DNA of 64,000 nucleotides from Chryseobacterium sp. Leaf180 (GTDB lineage Bacteria; Bacteroidota; Bacteroidia; Flavobacteriales; Weeksellaceae): NCBI RefSeq assembly GCF_001424585.1, contig NZ_LMPJ01000011.1:18197-82196 (forward strand), read 5' to 3'. Of the stretch, positions 12,136-45,848 are shown in pieces (positions within the stretch are counted from its first letter, which is position 1; each line of letters starts with the position of its first letter). The translations under genes and the position numbers were made by a program. The notes under the pieces were generated by a model. That model made no database searches and was not told where the DNA came from. It saw only the letters and a program-made list of their open reading frames with translations.

Positions 12136-13659
12136 TTATAATCTTTGATTAACTATACTTACTGGCAATACCCCTTTCACATCGTACACAATACCATTTT
12201 CTTTAAGAAACAGGCTTAGGTCGAGATGCAGAAATTCCTGGTGGGCAACCGTGAGGATAATGGCATCGAATCCTTCGACAGGCTCAGGATGACATTTCCC
12301 TTCGACAAGCTCAGAATGACAATGCCCTTCCACAGGCTCAGGATAACTGGAAGCCGGATCAGATGCTTCGACAGGCTCAGCATGACAATGGATGCCGTAT
12401 TCTGAGAAGACTTCCGCCGGATCGGCCCAGGGATCGACCGTGGTGACTTCAGCGCCATAGTCCTGTAAATGCGTGATTACATCGATGGCTTTTGAGTTTC
12501 TGATGTCCGGGCAGTTTTCCTTAAAAGTGATGCCCAGGTTTAAAATTTTTGAGCCTTTTATTTTGAGGTCTTTCTGGATCATCAGCTTGACGACCTGAGA
12601 AGCCACAAAAGCGCCCATCGAATCATTGAGGCGACGTGCGGCCAGAATTAATTCTGAGTAGTAGCCAATCTCCTGTGCTTTCTGAGCCAAGTAAAAAGGA
12701 TCTACTCCGATGCAATGTCCACCCACCAATCCCGGTTTAAACGGCAGAAAATTCCACTTTGTACCGGCGGCTGCCAATACGTCTTGGGTATCAATATCCA
12801 TTAAGGAGAAAATCTTCGCCAGTTCGTTCATAAAGGCGATGTTCAAATCGCGCTGAGAATTCTCTATTACTTTTGAGGCTTCCGCCACTTTGATCGTCGG
12901 AGCTAGATGGGTACCCGCTGTAATGACCGATTTATACAGAGCATCTACCACCTGACCAATTTCGGGTGTGGATCCCGACGTGACTTTCAAAATTTTATCG
13001 ACGGTATGTTCTTTATCACCCGGATTGATTCTTTCCGGTGAATAGCCTACAAAAAAGTCGGTATTACATTTTAGTCCGGATATTTTTTCCAAAACCGGTA
13101 CACATTCTTCTTCGGTTACGCCGGGATAAACGGTTGATTCGTAGATGACTATGTCCCCTTTATTCAGTACTTTTCCTACCGTTTCGCTGGCGCGGTATAA
13201 AGGGGTGAGATCAGGGCGGTTGTGTTTATCGATGGGGGTAGGAACGGTGACGATGAAGGTGTCGGCGTGTGTTATGTCGTTGAGGTCTGAAGAGGCGAAG
13301 AGACCTGGGTAGGTTTGTGCTTCGACAAGCTCAGCATGACACTGTGCTTCGACAGGCTCAGCATGACCTGCTTCTGTTTTATTTACGACAGGCTCAACAT
13401 GACGTTGCCCTTCGACAGGCTCAGGGTGACATTGTGCGTTGACAGGCTCAGCAGCTTTGAATGGATTGTGCTGCAGAAGGACTGCCTGGAGTGCTTCGTC
13501 GGCGATTTCGTTTGTAGCATCGTGGCCGGCATTGATTTCCTGTATCCGGCTCTGACTGATGTCAAAACCGACGACCGGATATTTTGTCGCCAATAATCGG
13601 GCGAGGGGTAACCCTACGTATCCCAATCCGATTACTGCTATTTTGTGTTTTCTCTGCAT
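12136..13659 (-). CDS. wecC: UDP-sugar 6-dehydrogenase (WecC/TviB type) with two repeat-derived inserts
   Basis: 507 residues, whereas the family is about 420. GLGYVG at 11-16 binds NAD; the catalytic Cys is C316 in GLVGGHCIGVDPFYL; ASKVIENSQRDLNIAFMNE is the family's central helix. Two stretches, about residues 70-117 and 425-463, do not belong to the family. They are runs of CHAEPVEA-like peptides encoded by a dispersed DNA repeat; removing them gives 420 residues. Both lie in loops before conserved strands (TFIVTVPTPID and FDAIILTVAH), so the enzyme may still work. Likely product: UDP-ManNAcA or a related UDP-HexNAc uronate. No WecB epimerase is in view. Confidence 0.85.
   Translation of the reverse strand: MQRKHKIAVIGLGYVGLPLARLLATKYPVVGFDISQSRIQEINAGHDATNEIADEALQAVLLQHNPFKAAEPVNAQCHPEPVEGQRHVEPVVNKTEAGHAEPVEAQCHAELVEAQTYPGLFASSDLNDITHADTFIVTVPTPIDKHNRPDLTPLYRASETVGKVLNKGDIVIYESTVYPGVTEEECVPVLEKISGLKCNTDFFVGYSPERINPGDKEHTVDKILKVTSGSTPEIGQVVDALYKSVITAGTHLAPTIKVAEASKVIENSQRDLNIAFMNELAKIFSLMDIDTQDVLAAAGTKWNFLPFKPGLVGGHCIGVDPFYLAQKAQEIGYYSELILAARRLNDSMGAFVASQVVKLMIQKDLKIKGSKILNLGITFKENCPDIRNSKAIDVITHLQDYGAEVTTVDPWADPAEVFSEYGIHCHAEPVEASDPASSYPEPVEGHCHSELVEGKCHPEPVEGFDAIILTVAHQEFLHLDLSLFLKENGIVYDVKGVLPVSIVNQRL
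12271..12391. repeat. Repeat block 1 inside the wecC-type gene (4 copies)
   Basis: Four copies of a repeat with core TTCGACAGGCTCAGCATGAC on the + strand. The copies begin near 12274, 12301, 12328 and 12367, so the steps are 27, 27 and 39 bases, all multiples of three. On the coding strand they read as CHAEPVEA, YPEPVEG, CHSELVEG and CHPEPVEG. The block makes residues 425-463 of the dehydrogenase. Confidence 0.9.
13316..13458. repeat. Repeat block 2 inside the wecC-type gene (5 copies)
   Basis: Five copies of the same repeat begin near 13321, 13348, 13384, 13411 and 13438 (steps 27, 36, 27, 27). All steps keep the reading frame. The peptides include CHPEPVEG, RHVEPV, GHAEPVEA and CHAELVEA. 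The last copy, next to LLQHNPFKAA, is shortened. Orientation is the same as in block 1. Confidence 0.9.
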
Positions 13660-36455: not shown

Positions 36456-37211
36456 ATTTAAAATTTAAAATTCAAGGTTTAAGATTATTTGGGCGCCTAT
36501 TTCCGCCTTCCACTCCCGCTTTTTTGTCATTGCGACAGAGCAGAAGTTGTTTTTTGAACTATTTTCGAATCGCAATAACAAAAAGAGCTTCGTTCAAGTC
36601 GGGGCGCGAGTGAAGCGAGCGCCGAAACAGTTAGTATTAGAGATTTCATGCTGAGCATGTCGAAGCATAAGCTCAAAAGTTGAGATGCTTCGTTCCTCGC
36701 AACGATAATATTAAATAAATGAGTAAAACCAGCTAGGTTTGGTAAGGATTAATAGGAACGGGCTTTAGCTCGTTTTCAAAAGAGAAGAAGTTCATCTGGC
36801 TTTAGCCAAAACTTAAAAAAAGTATTTTTTGCGCAAAGAACCTTGTCAAGGTTGATTCAGAAGTGGGAAGATTAACCGATTGAAAGAGATTGCTTTTTCC
36901 GAAGGCTGAAGACATATTGCTTTTCAAAATGAAAGGGGGTTTTAATGTGTTTTGTAAACCTAATGGGTTTTGAAAACCCGTTAGGTTTGGCTGGAGTCTA
37001 AAGAAAAACAAAACGTCATCTTAGCCCTGATTGCAGCGGCATCCTTTTGTGTGATTGCGATGGCAGAACAGCGAAAATGGTAAATTAACGTTGTCCGCAA
37101 TCACAAAAAAGATATAGCGAAAGCAGGTAGAAAAGTGAGGAGAAAGACTAAATTTTCTGCTCCCTAAAAATTAACAAAACAATGCATAAACTGCATTTTA
37201 CAATATAAAAA
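36456..37211. repeat. Repeat island between nrdB and nrdA
   Basis: No convincing gene. It holds several distinct elements: an inverted repeat at 36518-36588 (GTCATTGCGA versus TCGCAATAAC); a GGCGC...GCGCC hairpin at about 36603-36623; a copy of the wecC-type repeat at 36645-36668 (TCATGCTGAGCATGTCGAAG); a GATGCTTCGTTCCTCGCAAC element at 36684-36703; and a 33-base inverted repeat at 36956-36988. The short frame at 36802-37011 shows no family likeness and lies over these repeats. Confidence 0.75.
36956..36988. repeat. Long inverted repeat
   Basis: AAACCTAATGGGTTTT and AAAACCCGTTAGGTTT face each other around one G, with one mismatch. It could fold into a strong hairpin but has no T run, so it is more likely a dispersed palindromic element than a terminator. 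Confidence 0.8.
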
Positions 37212-42053: not shown

Positions 42054-42695
42054 TTAGCTTACCAAAATTTCGATAAACTCGGTAATCAGTTTCACAGGCT
42101 GTCCGTCTGCCGACAAACCGATGTAGCTGGCGTAAAATCCTTCCCCGTAGCCGGCTTCAAAAGCGAAAATAGTTCCCGGATTTTCTTCCGAAGGTTTCAA
42201 AAAAGCAAACTGATCGATCGCACCTTTTTCATCAAAAAAATGCTGATGAAAAAACTCTTCATAAATTCCTGTAAAATCTACGCCTTTGCTGTGATACAGT
42301 TTCTGTTCGAGCTCATTCAGGTCGGCCTGCGTACGCACATCCATCAGGCAGCCCATTCCGCTTTCGACAGGATAGCCAAAAACTTCACCTTCCGAAAGAT
42401 CTTTCAGATTCTGATTTTCAGTCACGGCAAGTTCCCAGCCTACAATTTTTTTATCACTGAAAACGACCTCAACATACGCCACACAATTGCTTTCGCGCTC
42501 TTTGTGCACCGTTACAGGAAAATTTCCCTGCGGAAAAACCATTGTAAAAGGCAGCATATCGTTAGTAATCAACGGATCGCAGGCTACCAGATTTCCGGTC
42601 GCCAGGTAGATTTTTCCCACATCAAAACTTTCCAGCAACGGACTTTCTACAAAGTCTTTTGAGAAGAGTTTCTGTATATTTTCAAGGTGTGTCAT
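42054..42695 (-). CDS. DUF4241 domain protein
   Basis: 213 residues, soluble, no signal peptide. The stretch YLATGNLVACDPLI and the end AFEAGYGEGFYASYIGLSADGQPVKLITEF mark DUF4241. The function of the family is not known to me. It is 37 bases upstream of rbsK and probably in the same unit. A copy of the dispersed repeat lies just upstream of its start (42711-42736). Confidence 0.85.
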   Translation of the reverse strand: MTHLENIQKLFSKDFVESPLLESFDVGKIYLATGNLVACDPLITNDMLPFTMVFPQGNFPVTVHKERESNCVAYVEVVFSDKKIVGWELAVTENQNLKDLSEGEVFGYPVESGMGCLMDVRTQADLNELEQKLYHSKGVDFTGIYEEFFHQHFFDEKGAIDQFAFLKPSEENPGTIFAFEAGYGEGFYASYIGLSADGQPVKLITEFIEILVS

Positions 42696-42710: not shown

Positions 42711-42736
42711 GTGTCAGGCTGAGCGGAGTCAAAGTC
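42711..42736 (+). repeat. Dispersed repeat copy a (left of the GIY-YIG gene)
   Basis: TGTCAGGCTGAGCGGAGTC plus AAAG. In the opposite orientation the same sequence occurs at 43064-43091, so the two copies bracket the GIY-YIG gene as inverted repeats. Confidence 0.85.
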
Positions 42737-42792
42737 TTTATCTATCTTAATATTATCTGAGTGACTTTTATTTTGACAGACGGATAATTCTT

Positions 42793-43053
42793 TCAGTTTT
42801 CCCAGTTGTCGTTAATAATCGCTTCTTTCTTTTTCCTGCTCCAACCCTTTACTTGTTTTTCAAAGGCTATTGCCTGATTTACATCGTTAAACTCACAGCA
42901 AAAAACCATCTCAACAGGTCTTCTTTTATGCGTATAATTACTCGGATGGTTGCAAGACTGATGTTGTACGAGCCTTGTCTCAGGATCATTTGTAACTCCT
43001 GTGTAATAAGAGTCGTCTGAACATTTTAATATGTAAACAAAATAATTTTTCAT
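42793..43053 (-). CDS. Single-domain GIY-YIG nuclease (UPF0213 type)
   Basis: 86 residues. YFVYILKCSDDSYYTGVT is the GIY-YIG core, and AFEKQVKGWSRKKKEAI the C-terminal helix with the metal-binding Glu. Nothing but the nuclease domain is present, so DNA specificity would come from the domain or from the bound repeat. It stands alone, between inverted copies of a dispersed repeat that also invades the wecC-type gene. A repair or repeat-mobilising role is inference. Confidence 0.9.
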   Translation of the reverse strand: MKNYFVYILKCSDDSYYTGVTNDPETRLVQHQSCNHPSNYTHKRRPVEMVFCCEFNDVNQAIAFEKQVKGWSRKKKEAIINDNWEN

Positions 43054-43063
43054 ATTAATAATA

Positions 43064-43091
43064 AGGCTTCGACTCCGCTCAGCCTGACAGA
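43064..43091 (-). repeat. Dispersed repeat copy b (right of the GIY-YIG gene)
   Basis: GGCTTCGACTCCGCTCAGCC plus TGACAGAT; inverted relative to copies a and c. With copy c it forms a facing pair 28 bases apart. Confidence 0.85.
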
Positions 43092-43119
43092 TCTTACATT
43101 ACCAGTTTACATTATTTAT

Positions 43120-43146
43120 CTGTCACGCTGAGCGAAGTCGAAGCGT
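43120..43146 (+). repeat. Dispersed repeat copy c (touching the valS stop)
   Basis: CTGTCACGCTGAGCGAAGTC plus GAAGCG. It faces copy b, and its last base is within the valS stop region, so the pair may act as the end of the valS transcript. Confidence 0.85.
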
Positions 43147-45848
43147 TATAAACTTTTCAGTTTCTCTTCTAAAAGTGCAATCTTATCAATAGCATCTTTC
43201 TGCTTTTTGCGCTCTACTTCTACCACTTCAGGTTTAGCGTTGGCAACAAATTTTTCATTGGAAAGCTTTTTGTCTACTGAAATCAGGAAGCCTTTTAAAT
43301 ATTTTAATTCTTCTTCGGTTTTCTCTTTTTCTTCTCCTAAATCTAAGTTTTCACTTAAAGGGATTGAGATTTCTATTGAACCAACCAGGAATGTAAAACT
43401 CGGTACCTCTGTTTTTGTTCCGAAATGAATTTCAGCAACATTAGCCAGTTTTTTGATGACAGGCTCATTCGCAAGTTCTGAAGCATTCGTGTAGACTTCC
43501 ACAATCTCTTTCGGAGAAATTCCTTTGGTCTGGCGGTAATTTCTGATTCCGGAAATAATTTCAGATGCCGTTTCGAAGTTTTTAATGATTGCTTCGTCGA
43601 AACTTTCTGATTTCTTCTGCTGGGCAATCATCAAAGCATCTTCAATCTTTCTTTCTGAAATCGTCTGCCACAATTCTTCTGTAAGGAAAGGCATAAACGG
43701 ATGTAGCAGCTTCATCAGTTCTTCAAATAACGCAATCGTCTTCGTGTAAACTTCTTTTGAAATTCCTTCTCCGAAATTGGGTTTGATAGCCTCAAGATAC
43801 CAACCGCAGAAATCATCTTTAATTAATTTCTGAATTAAATTTAATGCATCAGAAATCCTGAATTTATCAAACTGATCATTGATATCTGCAGTTGATTTAT
43901 TTAATTGATTTTCAAACCATTCTATAGTCTGAATTTCTGTGGAGTTGGCAGATTTATCTTCATGTTTCCACATATTGATCAGTCGGAATGCATTCCAGAT
44001 TTTAGTTCCGAAATTTCTTCCCAAATCACAAAGTGGAGAGGTGTAAATTGAATCTTTTCCTTCTTCCATCCTCTGTTTTACCTGCTTTTCAGTCAAAACA
44101 TTTCCTGCTTCATCAATCTGCTCAGAATCGAATTTCAAATCATTTCCGGCTGCAGAACTCATCATAATTCCTACTCTCACTGCATCAGCTCCGTAACGCT
44201 CGATCAAATCCAGGGGATCGGGAGAATTTCCAAGAGATTTAGACATTTTTCTGCCAATTTTATCTCTTACAATTCCTGTAAAATAAACATTTTTAAATGG
44301 AATTTCCTTTCTGTATTCTAATCCCGCCATGATCATTCTGGCAACCCAGAAAAAAATAATGTCCGGACCTGTAACAAGATCGGAAGTTGGATAATAATAG
44401 TTAATTTCCTGGTTTTCCGGATTATTGAGTCCGTCAAAAACCGACATGGGCCACAACCATGATGAGAACCATGTGTCGAGAGCGTCTTCATCCTGACGGA
44501 GATCTGAAATTTGAAGGTTTGAAACTTGAGATTTTTCCTTCGCAAGTTCTAATGCATCTTCAATATTTTCGGCAACTACGAAATCATTTTCACCGTCGCC
44601 ATAATAGAATGCAGGAATCTGCTGTCCCCACCAAAGCTGGCGGGAAATATTCCAGTCGCGGATGTTTTCCATCCAGTGTCTGTAAGTGTTTTTGAATTTT
44701 TCGGGATAAAATTTCACCTCATCATCCATTACAACATCCAAAGCCGGCTTCCCTAATTCAGACATTTTAAGGAACCACTGAACAGAAACTTTAGGCTCAA
44801 TGACGGCTCCTGTTCTTTCAGATGTTCCTACTTTATTGTTGTAATCTTCTGCTTTCAGCAAAAGATTATTTTCTTCAAGTTCTTTTGCGATCTGCTTCCT
44901 TACAACAAATCTGTTTTTTCCTGCATAATGCAAGCCATGCTCATTTAGATTGGCGTCGTCATCAAGAGAATCAATCATTTGAAGATTGTGTTTCTTACCG
45001 ATTTCGTAATCGTTGATGTCGTGAGCAGGCGTGATTTTCAATGCTCCGGTTCCAAATTCAATATCAACATATTCATCTTCAATAATAGGAATAACTCTGT
45101 TGACGATAGGCACAATCACGTTTTTTCCTTTCAGATGGGCATATCTGTCATCATTTGGATTAATACAGACAGCTGTGTCTCCAAAAATGGTTTCCGGACG
45201 TGTGGTTGCTACCGAAAGAAACTCTTCTGTTCCTTCAATTTTGTATTTAAGGAAATATAATTTCCCGTTTTGTTCTTTAAAAATTACTTCCTCATCAGAA
45301 ATATTTGTTTTTGCCTCGGGATCCCAGTTTACCATTCTGTAACCCCTGTAAATCAATCCTTTATTATACAAATCAACAAAAGCTTTGATTACCTGACCCG
45401 AAAGCTTTGGCTCCATCGTGAAACTCGTTCTGTCCCAGTCACAAGAGCAACCCAGTTTTTTCAGCTGTTCAAGGATGGTTCCGCCATATTTGTCTGTCCA
45501 TTCCCATGCGTGTTTTAAAAATTCTTCACGCGTAAGATCAGATTTATTAATTCCTTCAGATTTCAGTTTGGCAACCACTTTCGCTTCTGTAGCAATTGAA
45601 GCGTGATCAGTACCAGGAACCCAGCAGGCATTGAAGCCCTGCATTCTTGCACGGCGAACCAGAATATCCTGAATGGTATTATTCAGCATATGCCCCATGT
45701 GGAGAATTCCGGTGACGTTTGGAGGTGGTATCACAATCGTGTACGGTGGCTTATCGTTTGGTTCTGAGTGGAAATATTTGTTTTCCAGCCAGTATTTGTA
45801 CCATTTCTGTTCGGTTTCCTGTGGATTATATTTCTCTGAAATCTGCAT
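43146..45848 (-). CDS. valS: Valyl-tRNA synthetase
   Basis: 900 residues. HMGH at 50-53 and KMSKSLGNSPDP near 534 are the class I HIGH and KMSKS motifs; PPPNVTGILHMGH is specific to ValRS. The C-terminal coiled-coil arm is present (ends EKLKSL). Near residues 438-450 the sequence SQVSNLQISDLR is encoded by DNA worded like a gap repeat. It charges tRNA-Val in the cytoplasm and edits mischarged Thr. Confidence 0.97.
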   Translation of the reverse strand: MQISEKYNPQETEQKWYKYWLENKYFHSEPNDKPPYTIVIPPPNVTGILHMGHMLNNTIQDILVRRARMQGFNACWVPGTDHASIATEAKVVAKLKSEGINKSDLTREEFLKHAWEWTDKYGGTILEQLKKLGCSCDWDRTSFTMEPKLSGQVIKAFVDLYNKGLIYRGYRMVNWDPEAKTNISDEEVIFKEQNGKLYFLKYKIEGTEEFLSVATTRPETIFGDTAVCINPNDDRYAHLKGKNVIVPIVNRVIPIIEDEYVDIEFGTGALKITPAHDINDYEIGKKHNLQMIDSLDDDANLNEHGLHYAGKNRFVVRKQIAKELEENNLLLKAEDYNNKVGTSERTGAVIEPKVSVQWFLKMSELGKPALDVVMDDEVKFYPEKFKNTYRHWMENIRDWNISRQLWWGQQIPAFYYGDGENDFVVAENIEDALELAKEKSQVSNLQISDLRQDEDALDTWFSSWLWPMSVFDGLNNPENQEINYYYPTSDLVTGPDIIFFWVARMIMAGLEYRKEIPFKNVYFTGIVRDKIGRKMSKSLGNSPDPLDLIERYGADAVRVGIMMSSAAGNDLKFDSEQIDEAGNVLTEKQVKQRMEEGKDSIYTSPLCDLGRNFGTKIWNAFRLINMWKHEDKSANSTEIQTIEWFENQLNKSTADINDQFDKFRISDALNLIQKLIKDDFCGWYLEAIKPNFGEGISKEVYTKTIALFEELMKLLHPFMPFLTEELWQTISERKIEDALMIAQQKKSESFDEAIIKNFETASEIISGIRNYRQTKGISPKEIVEVYTNASELANEPVIKKLANVAEIHFGTKTEVPSFTFLVGSIEISIPLSENLDLGEEKEKTEEELKYLKGFLISVDKKLSNEKFVANAKPEVVEVERKKQKDAIDKIALLEEKLKSL

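Follow-up and report, generated by a model that had tools for sequence, protein, structure and literature searches.

The GIY-YIG Gene and Its Neighborhood

The window, by which we mean the whole stretch of 64,000 nucleotides from Chryseobacterium sp. Leaf180 analyzed here, contains a small GIY-YIG nuclease gene between valS and a gene for a DUF4241 protein, together with three copies of a short repeat (Table 1). The sequence-only reading had described an 86-residue, single-domain GIY-YIG gene with copies a and b inverted around it and copy c beyond, and all of these elements are present and oriented as described. The encoded protein matches the catalytic domain PF01541 over its length (E 8.5e-18, residues 3–76 on positions 1–76 of the 78-position profile). 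The GIY-YIG domain stands alone, as this protein gave no match to an intron, an intein or a further domain, and NCBIfam provided no model for it. PADLOC models did not match the gene, and assignment to defense or phage protein families was rejected after zero matches.

Table 1. Features of the window, with positions counted from its first nucleotide
Feature	Position	Strand	Remarks
UDP-glucose/GDP-mannose dehydrogenase ORF	12136..13659	-	two in-frame repeat clusters, 12273-12380 and 13320-13424
Single sister-subtype repeat core	36651..36665	+	between ribonucleotide reductase small- and large-subunit ORFs
DUF4241 gene	42054..42695	-	downstream neighbor of nuclease gene
Repeat copy a	42712..42738	+	54 nt past nuclease gene stop; 2 mismatches vs copy b
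GIY-YIG nuclease gene	42793..43053	-	86 aa, single domain
Repeat copy b	43063..43089	-	TGTCAGGCTGAGCGGAGTCGAAGCCTT; 9 nt from nuclease start codon
Copies b and c, REPIN-like inverted pair	43063..43147		tags face each other
Repeat copy c	43121..43147	+	TGTCACGCTGAGCGAAGTCGAAGCGTT; compensatory CGCT/AGCG stem; 2-nt overlap with valS end
valS	43146..45848	-	upstream neighbor of nuclease gene

The structure predicted for the 86-residue protein is a confident GIY-YIG model (mean pLDDT 88.4). Across 24 aligned sequences, the window protein and 23 relatives, residues Y7, Y17, R27 and E65 do not vary (L117 was left out of the structure alignment), and we take them to be the Tyr, Tyr, Arg and Glu of the GIY-YIG active site and presumably catalytic. 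The nearest solved folds and sequences in the PDB are the UPF0213 proteins 1zg2 and 1ywl (E 1.7e-5 and 8e-4), whose records give neither a function nor an association with repeats. Slx1 is a weaker match (best E 0.013). The titles of its PDB entries name branched DNA as the substrate, which by analogy would fit a hairpin or cruciform as the target of the 86-residue nuclease.

The 3.35-Mb genome (15 contigs) encodes one protein of this family at E ≤ 0.001. Judged by flanking sequence, the end of valS and the start of the DUF4241 gene bracket the nuclease gene in 26 of the 30 best matches from the genus. In the close clade the gene mostly stays at one place, apparently by vertical inheritance. 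At the 3' ends of the genes of close relatives (L007–L034), many reading frames continue into the downstream repeat and end in GFDSAQPD-like residues.

Repeats in the Window and across the Genus

All three copies in the window carry the tag TGTC, and copies b and c each form a 5-bp stem with a 12-nt loop. Folded alone, the window REPs are weak (-2.9 and -3.4 kcal/mol, z -0.34 and -0.16), and the stretch from 43061 to 43149 that covers copies b and c could form one long hairpin (-28.1 kcal/mol, z -8.9). A search of the genome with a 20-mer core, allowing at most two mismatches, returned four sites, three of them at the nuclease locus; the reversed pattern returned none. The identity of a known Rfam RNA was rejected, with four matches that all scored far below the gathering scores.

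Further repeats occur elsewhere in the window. The sequence-only reading had counted nine copies of the same repeat family inside the wecC-type gene and one between nrdB and nrdA. Repeats of this kind are indeed present at both places, and they are of a sister subtype, with the core GAGC[C/T]TGTCGA in the dehydrogenase ORF as opposed to GAGCGGAGTCGA at the nuclease locus. In the dehydrogenase ORF, six repeats were found by regular expression and eight CHPEPVEG-like units were read in the translation. Rickettsia palindromic elements occur inside genes, and the dehydrogenase ORF resembles that situation in that repeats are translated in frame within a protein gene; it differs in that its units are a sister subtype of a repeat linked to a nuclease. 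RPE repeats are named in the available text of PMC3733652.

Across the genus the repeat follows the plan TGTC, stem, GA, interior, GA, stem. Among 40 copies, 39 of which were gathered by their core alone, the outer two stem positions pair in 37 and 34 cases, and the complementary combinations seen there are of five different kinds. The repeat center also has a longer form, with two small internal hairpins. Exact copies of the core CTGAGCGNAGTCGAAG number 1015 and are dispersed over 148 genomes. Pairs in minus-then-plus orientation are common, often 52–75 nt apart and sometimes wider, and head-to-head dimers are thus formed by genus pairs as well as by copies b and c. The pairs also behave as REPINs, as a unit of approximately 100 bp is matched at many places in the genus and is missing from some orthologous sites. 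An element resembling TTAGTATTAG, or its complement, recurs beside the tag in REPIN spacers, for example at L208, L217 and L223.

Repeats Bracket GIY-YIG Genes in Several Phyla

Bracketing was quantified with a detector that contains no repeat sequence and specifies GTC, a 5-nt stem, GA, up to about 70 nt, GA and the complementary stem; nested matches count repeatedly, in the flanks as in the controls. The detector was designed on the genus set of 90 GIY-YIG loci, of which 89 were counted after one (L098) gave no tblastn match. The 300-bp flanks of these 89 loci contain 137 matches, with 55 loci having a match upstream, 55 downstream and 41 on both sides. As controls, 62.5 kb of the window gave 3 matches, two of which are dehydrogenase-gene repeats; the more distal DNA of these loci gave 25 in 135 kb, and shuffled flanks gave 3 in 1.07 Mb. 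Most loci of the close clade have their repeats at similar offsets.

We then applied the detector to 80 named loci that had not been used for its design; these are the best 80 among the matches listed and were found by protein similarity alone. Their flanks (51.2 kb) contain 193 matches, compared with 46 in the 326 kb beyond 700 bp, and a match lies upstream at 50, downstream at 53 and on both sides at 44 of the 80 loci. With the comparison restricted to intergenic DNA, 180 matches fall in the 33.4 kb near the gene, where 19.5 are expected, and 31 in 53.2 kb of distant DNA. One expectation of the sequence-only reading, an excess of such repeats beside GIY-YIG genes, is borne out by this result. 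When a second detector was added, 62 of the 80 loci had a match on at least one side; the remaining 18 showed no repeat upstream or downstream with either detector. With a loose detector (7-bp stem starting with A, no GA), the 51.2 kb of flanks of the named loci gave 12 matches and the 326 kb gave 34.

According to record titles, loci recognized by the strict detector belong to Bacteroidota, Calditrichota (L136), Dehalococcoidales (L166), Marinicella (L181), and Clostridia and relatives (L145, L160, L171, L180). The same detector found nothing at loci from, among others, Verrucomicrobia (L141), Clostridiales (L146), Deltaproteobacteria (L149), Melainabacteria (L150), Elusimicrobiota (L157), a second Calditrichota record (L163), Kamptonema (L164), Brocadiaceae (L167) and Oscillospiraceae (L175). 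At the level of sequence, repeat-flanked GIY-YIG genes are found in several phyla and the link is general.

Repeat Subtype Follows Protein Clade

The flanks of the genus loci contain several core types, namely GAGCGGAGTCGA, GAGCTTGTCGA, GAGGNNCTCGA, TCGAGT...TATCGAGA, ATTCTGA...GAAGAAT (or ATTTCGA) and the short TGTCATTCCGNAGGAATC. With label patterns that were written after inspection of the flanks, 87 of the 89 loci have at least one core within 300 bp. One of the two unlabeled loci (L093) carries a GTC-less form, and a relative of it (L189, genome G122) has CGTCATTGCGAGGAGCGAAAGCGACGAAGCAATCTC on one side and a similar copy in inverted orientation on the other. Some clades share core types: GAGGNNCTCGA is common to two protein groups, one with TGTC-tagged repeats and the other with repeats that have an extended GGTGGCT stem and are mostly untagged. 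A GTC tag is missing from most clade B repeats, and L079 and L083 are single exceptions in that each has a core typical of other groups.

Mapped on a tree of 85 proteins, core type changes nine times; the minimum is 6, the mean after shuffling is 51.7, and none of 200 shuffles was as low. This tree rests on few columns and leaves many forks unresolved, and it excludes four of the 89 loci (L015, L022, L053, L057) whose genes are broken, with fewer than 60 residues to the first stop. As far as sequence comparison goes, nuclease clade and repeat subtype go together, with exceptions.

The same correspondence is seen in copy numbers. In a matrix of 148 genus genomes that is uncorrected for relatedness, genomes with protein A contain a median of 9 A repeats (27/27 non-zero) versus 2 (82/121) in those without it (p 2.4e-7); for protein A2 the medians are 16 (11/11) and 1 (84/137; p 5.1e-6), and for protein E 7 (22/23) and 0 (24/125; p 1.1e-15). 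The six mismatched pairings of repeat and protein gave p values from 0.057 to 0.96. Presence sets were compiled by hand from the protein matches listed, down to near E 1e-9. Gene copies with stops occur in the genus, and set A includes four genomes with such copies (G005, G054, G109, G130) and set A2 one with a broken copy (G135); in set E, three members out of 23 (G011, G018, G108) were assigned by identity alone.

The prediction that copy numbers of repeat and gene go together holds for matching subtypes (A, A2 and E), with exceptions, as many genomes contain repeats without the gene. A simple rule of presence and absence was rejected on the same grounds: beside the genomes that have A repeats without protein A, G129 contains 64 copies of the core repeat and no GIY-YIG match with the family profile, and such a match is missing in 7 of 20 repeat-rich genomes. 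Because so many repeats occur without the gene, either loss or another agent must be invoked.

Broken, Exchanged and Polymorphic Repeats

We read the valS–DUF4241 site in twenty genomes without protein A. In G081 and G071 the gene-free alleles consist of a hybrid of two REP halves and match the occupied alleles up to points inside both flanking REPs. Seven genomes (G010, G015, G023, G032, G052, G066, G095) have a palindrome of similar kind whose limits are less clear, a stretch starting with TGTCAGGCTGAG is found in G105 and G129, and another palindrome-like stretch in G075; seven more have other sequence of 324 to 693 nt, and in G072 the end of valS was not located at this site. The gene-free alleles may be losses or ancestral targets. 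These alleles predict that a break would fall in the REP center, between TGTCAGGCTGAG and CGAAGCCT, and the analogy to RAYTs predicts that it would fall at the TGTC tag.

REP centers are also exchanged between loci of otherwise like sequence. At L012 the center of the upstream REP is replaced relative to L011 and L013, with flanks that are otherwise identical, and a like swap distinguishes L021 from L029 (upstream) and from L022 (downstream), with near-identical flanks. In both groups the exchange is for the longer two-hairpin form.

Presence/absence polymorphism was found for a complete REP–gene–REP unit and for REPINs. Azospirillum lipoferum carries such a unit between sufB and sufC, and three relatives lack it there (94.7–96.3% identity); the spacer at this site is too diverged for exact insertion ends or target duplications. 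GIY-YIG genes occupy the same sufB–sufC junction in Azospirillum and Shinella (L246, L259). An intergenic site of G129, compared across 30 orthologous loci, contains a REPIN in five of them, and in G046 it is a 72-nt spacer without REPIN. The same site contains a short TGTCATTCCG pair in G122 (L290) and a GGTGGCT-type repeat in G017, whose nuclease locus (L076) has GGTGGCT-type repeats as well. The short TGTCATTCCG repeat was not found at the nuclease locus of G122 (L189), which is bracketed instead by the CGTCATTGCGAGG form. The 51-nt interior of the orthologous REPIN at this site is identical and inverted between G129 (L284) and G076 (L288), within a matched region of 79% identity. This inversion and the center swaps could result from ordinary recombination between repeats.

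A Proposed Role for the Nuclease

Our preferred reading, to which we assign a probability of roughly two in three (0.68), is that single-domain GIY-YIG nucleases are dedicated partner enzymes of TGTC/CGTC-tagged REPs and spread REPINs by cutting and by repair or re-joining. The nuclease would recognize the unpaired tag and the hairpin of its own REP, presented as a single-stranded hairpin or as a cruciform, and would cut in or near the REP. Repair or re-joining could then spread REP pairs (REPINs) to new sites, and could also swap REP centers and at times remove the nuclease gene. The short repeats would disperse in this way, and within the close clade the gene itself mostly keeps its place. 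Beside bracketing and subtype matching, this reading draws on the conserved residues and fold of the protein, the compensatory stem changes, the breaks and swaps at repeats, and the polymorphic gene unit and REPIN. Counting against it are repeats without the gene, named loci without repeats, cores shared between clades, the mostly tagless clade B repeats, the discordant types at the two G122 sites, and the weak folding of single window REPs. The data support the link between nuclease and repeat, and the mobilizing function is what we infer from it. The sequence-only proposal of a nuclease linked with its own repeats, on a plan like that of REPs and RAYTs, gains support from the enrichment and from the subtype-matched copy numbers.

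Several other explanations deserve consideration. Since REPs are mostly intergenic, any gene that lies between them could appear bracketed, and the layout might reflect chance or a hot spot, with small genes landing in repeat-rich intergenic DNA. We find this hardly credible, given that an approximately nine-fold enrichment persists in the intergenic-only control, that repeat subtype tracks the protein tree, and that offsets are similar in most loci of the close clade; chance clustering was rejected by the detector controls for genus flanks, named loci and intergenic DNA alike. It is also unlikely, to a lesser degree, that the nuclease is bound to the repeats and mobilizes nothing, the REPs being sites of regulation or processing, either of the nuclease mRNA or in genome maintenance, that spread otherwise. 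The short distance of copy b from the start codon and the mostly conserved place of the gene in the close clade are consistent with such a role, as is the occurrence of GIY-YIG domains in housekeeping repair, for which the available text of PMC1564403 gives UvrC as an example. This explanation leaves unaccounted for that repeat number tracks the matching protein and that REPINs and the gene itself are polymorphic in presence and absence.

The swaps between identical flanks and the breaks inside REPs at two gene-free alleles would also follow from homing-like gene conversion alone, in which a REP is cut and repair from another copy exchanges centers or variants, with new sites arising rarely or by accident. 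REPINs at sites that are empty in relatives, and the dispersal of the exact core copies over so many genomes, argue against it, and we consider it quite improbable. The remaining candidates are RAYT-type Y1 transposases that mobilize the repeats in trans, with the GIY-YIG link being secondary. Y1_Tnp domains are indeed present in 19 of 20 repeat-bearing genomes. Eight loci were examined among the 65 Y1_Tnp matches, and no repeat of this kind lies within 1.5 kb of any of them. G146 contains 20 core repeats and protein A without a Y1_Tnp match, and Di Nocera et al. found no gene for a tyrosine transposase with CGTC repeats at its sides, according to the available sections of PMC3733652. RAYTs as the main agent were rejected on the grounds of the unflanked Y1_Tnp loci and of G146, and action in trans is very improbable.

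The proposed partnership has a precedent in GTAG REPs and RAYTs, which, as presented in the available part of PMC3733652, comprise tagged hairpins, inverted pairs, a flanked enzyme gene, enzyme-specific families and some enzyme-free genomes. The system described here likewise has short tagged hairpins in inverted pairs, a small enzyme gene between its own repeats, several enzyme-specific repeat families, and repeats without the enzyme in some genomes. By this analogy the nuclease/repeat pair would work like a REP/RAYT pair. It is not a member of that group, since its repeats carry TGTC or CGTC in place of GTAG and its enzyme is a GIY-YIG nuclease instead of an HUH tyrosine transposase; the Y1 genes examined are not flanked by the repeats. 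With GIY-YIG homing endonucleases the protein shares the catalytic domain PF01541, and copying by repair of a cut site would be possible for both. Unlike those enzymes, it is encoded between valS and the DUF4241 gene, in the company of dispersed repeats, instead of being associated with an intron, an intein or an extra domain.

Plasmid-Collection Loci and CGTC REPs

A protein search of a plasmid collection gave 32 records, of which we read 16; these were chosen by eye to represent different species and include some near relatives. A tagged hairpin lies upstream at 14, downstream at 15 and on both sides at 13 of these 16 loci. Their distant parts contain nine tagged hairpins, which the Neisseria and Photobacterium loci alone account for. 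The repeat is, for example, CGTCATCCCCGCGAAGGCGGGGATCCAG in Azospirillum lipoferum, CGTCATCCTCGGGCTTGACCCGAGGATCCA in Sinorhizobium meliloti and Shinella, and CGTCATTCCCGCGCAGGCGGGAATCTAG in Neisseria gonorrhoeae, and the tags at the plasmid-collection loci are CGTC, TGTC or CCTC. The repeats beside most of the genes read have the form that was published as CGTC-tagged REPs, including Neisseria dRS3.

CGTC REPs are defined in the available text of Di Nocera et al. 2013 (PMC3733652) by a hairpin (8–9 bp stem, 4–5 nt loop) that has an unpaired CGTC, TGTC or CCTC tag at its foot, and by predominantly head-to-head dimers. The same text reports them from five phyla, with Bacteroidetes, alpha-proteobacteria and Neisseria among the carriers, points out that TGTC or CCTC often takes the place of the tag, and equates the CGTC REPs of Neisseria with dRS3. 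The window repeats resemble them in the TGTC tag and the head-to-head pair, and differ in their shorter stem and longer loop. Hairpins of the published dimensions are found at many plasmid-collection loci, such as those of Azospirillum and Neisseria, and the window copies lack them. Therefore, we call the window copies TGTC-tagged relatives of CGTC REPs and not members of that group.

The available sections of PMC3733652 further state that CGTC repeats have no association with transposase genes and seem to be without a dedicated transposase; the mobilizer is left open there, and its early disappearance is considered possible. The string "GIY" is absent from the text of PMC3733652 as available. 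Among the papers listed by literature searches that had preprints and most subscription papers outside their scope, none ties GIY-YIG proteins to REP, REPIN, RAYT or CGTC repeats in bacteria; this does not prove priority for the link between GIY-YIG nucleases and REPs. We lean slightly toward a broader reading, in which GIY-YIG nucleases would be a new transposase-like class that mobilizes hairpin REPs in several phyla, a second and independently evolved alliance of REP and nuclease beside that of the RAYTs. Such a class would explain the CGTC REP superfamily, with dRS3 of Neisseria as part of it, and each nuclease clade would recognize a tag and a hairpin of its own.

With clade and subtype matched, a specific enzyme can be put forward as a candidate and its cognate and non-cognate substrates can be named, and the question as to what mobilizes CGTC REPs is therefore directly testable. 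If the proposal is true, it adds an enzyme family that the known REP system does not use, suggests what is done by proteins whose sole annotation is "GIY-YIG nuclease family protein", and offers small sequence- or structure-specific nucleases. In Planktothrix (L253), a repeat-flanked GIY-YIG gene is located between the genes for an MmeI-like enzyme and the DISARM protein drmA.
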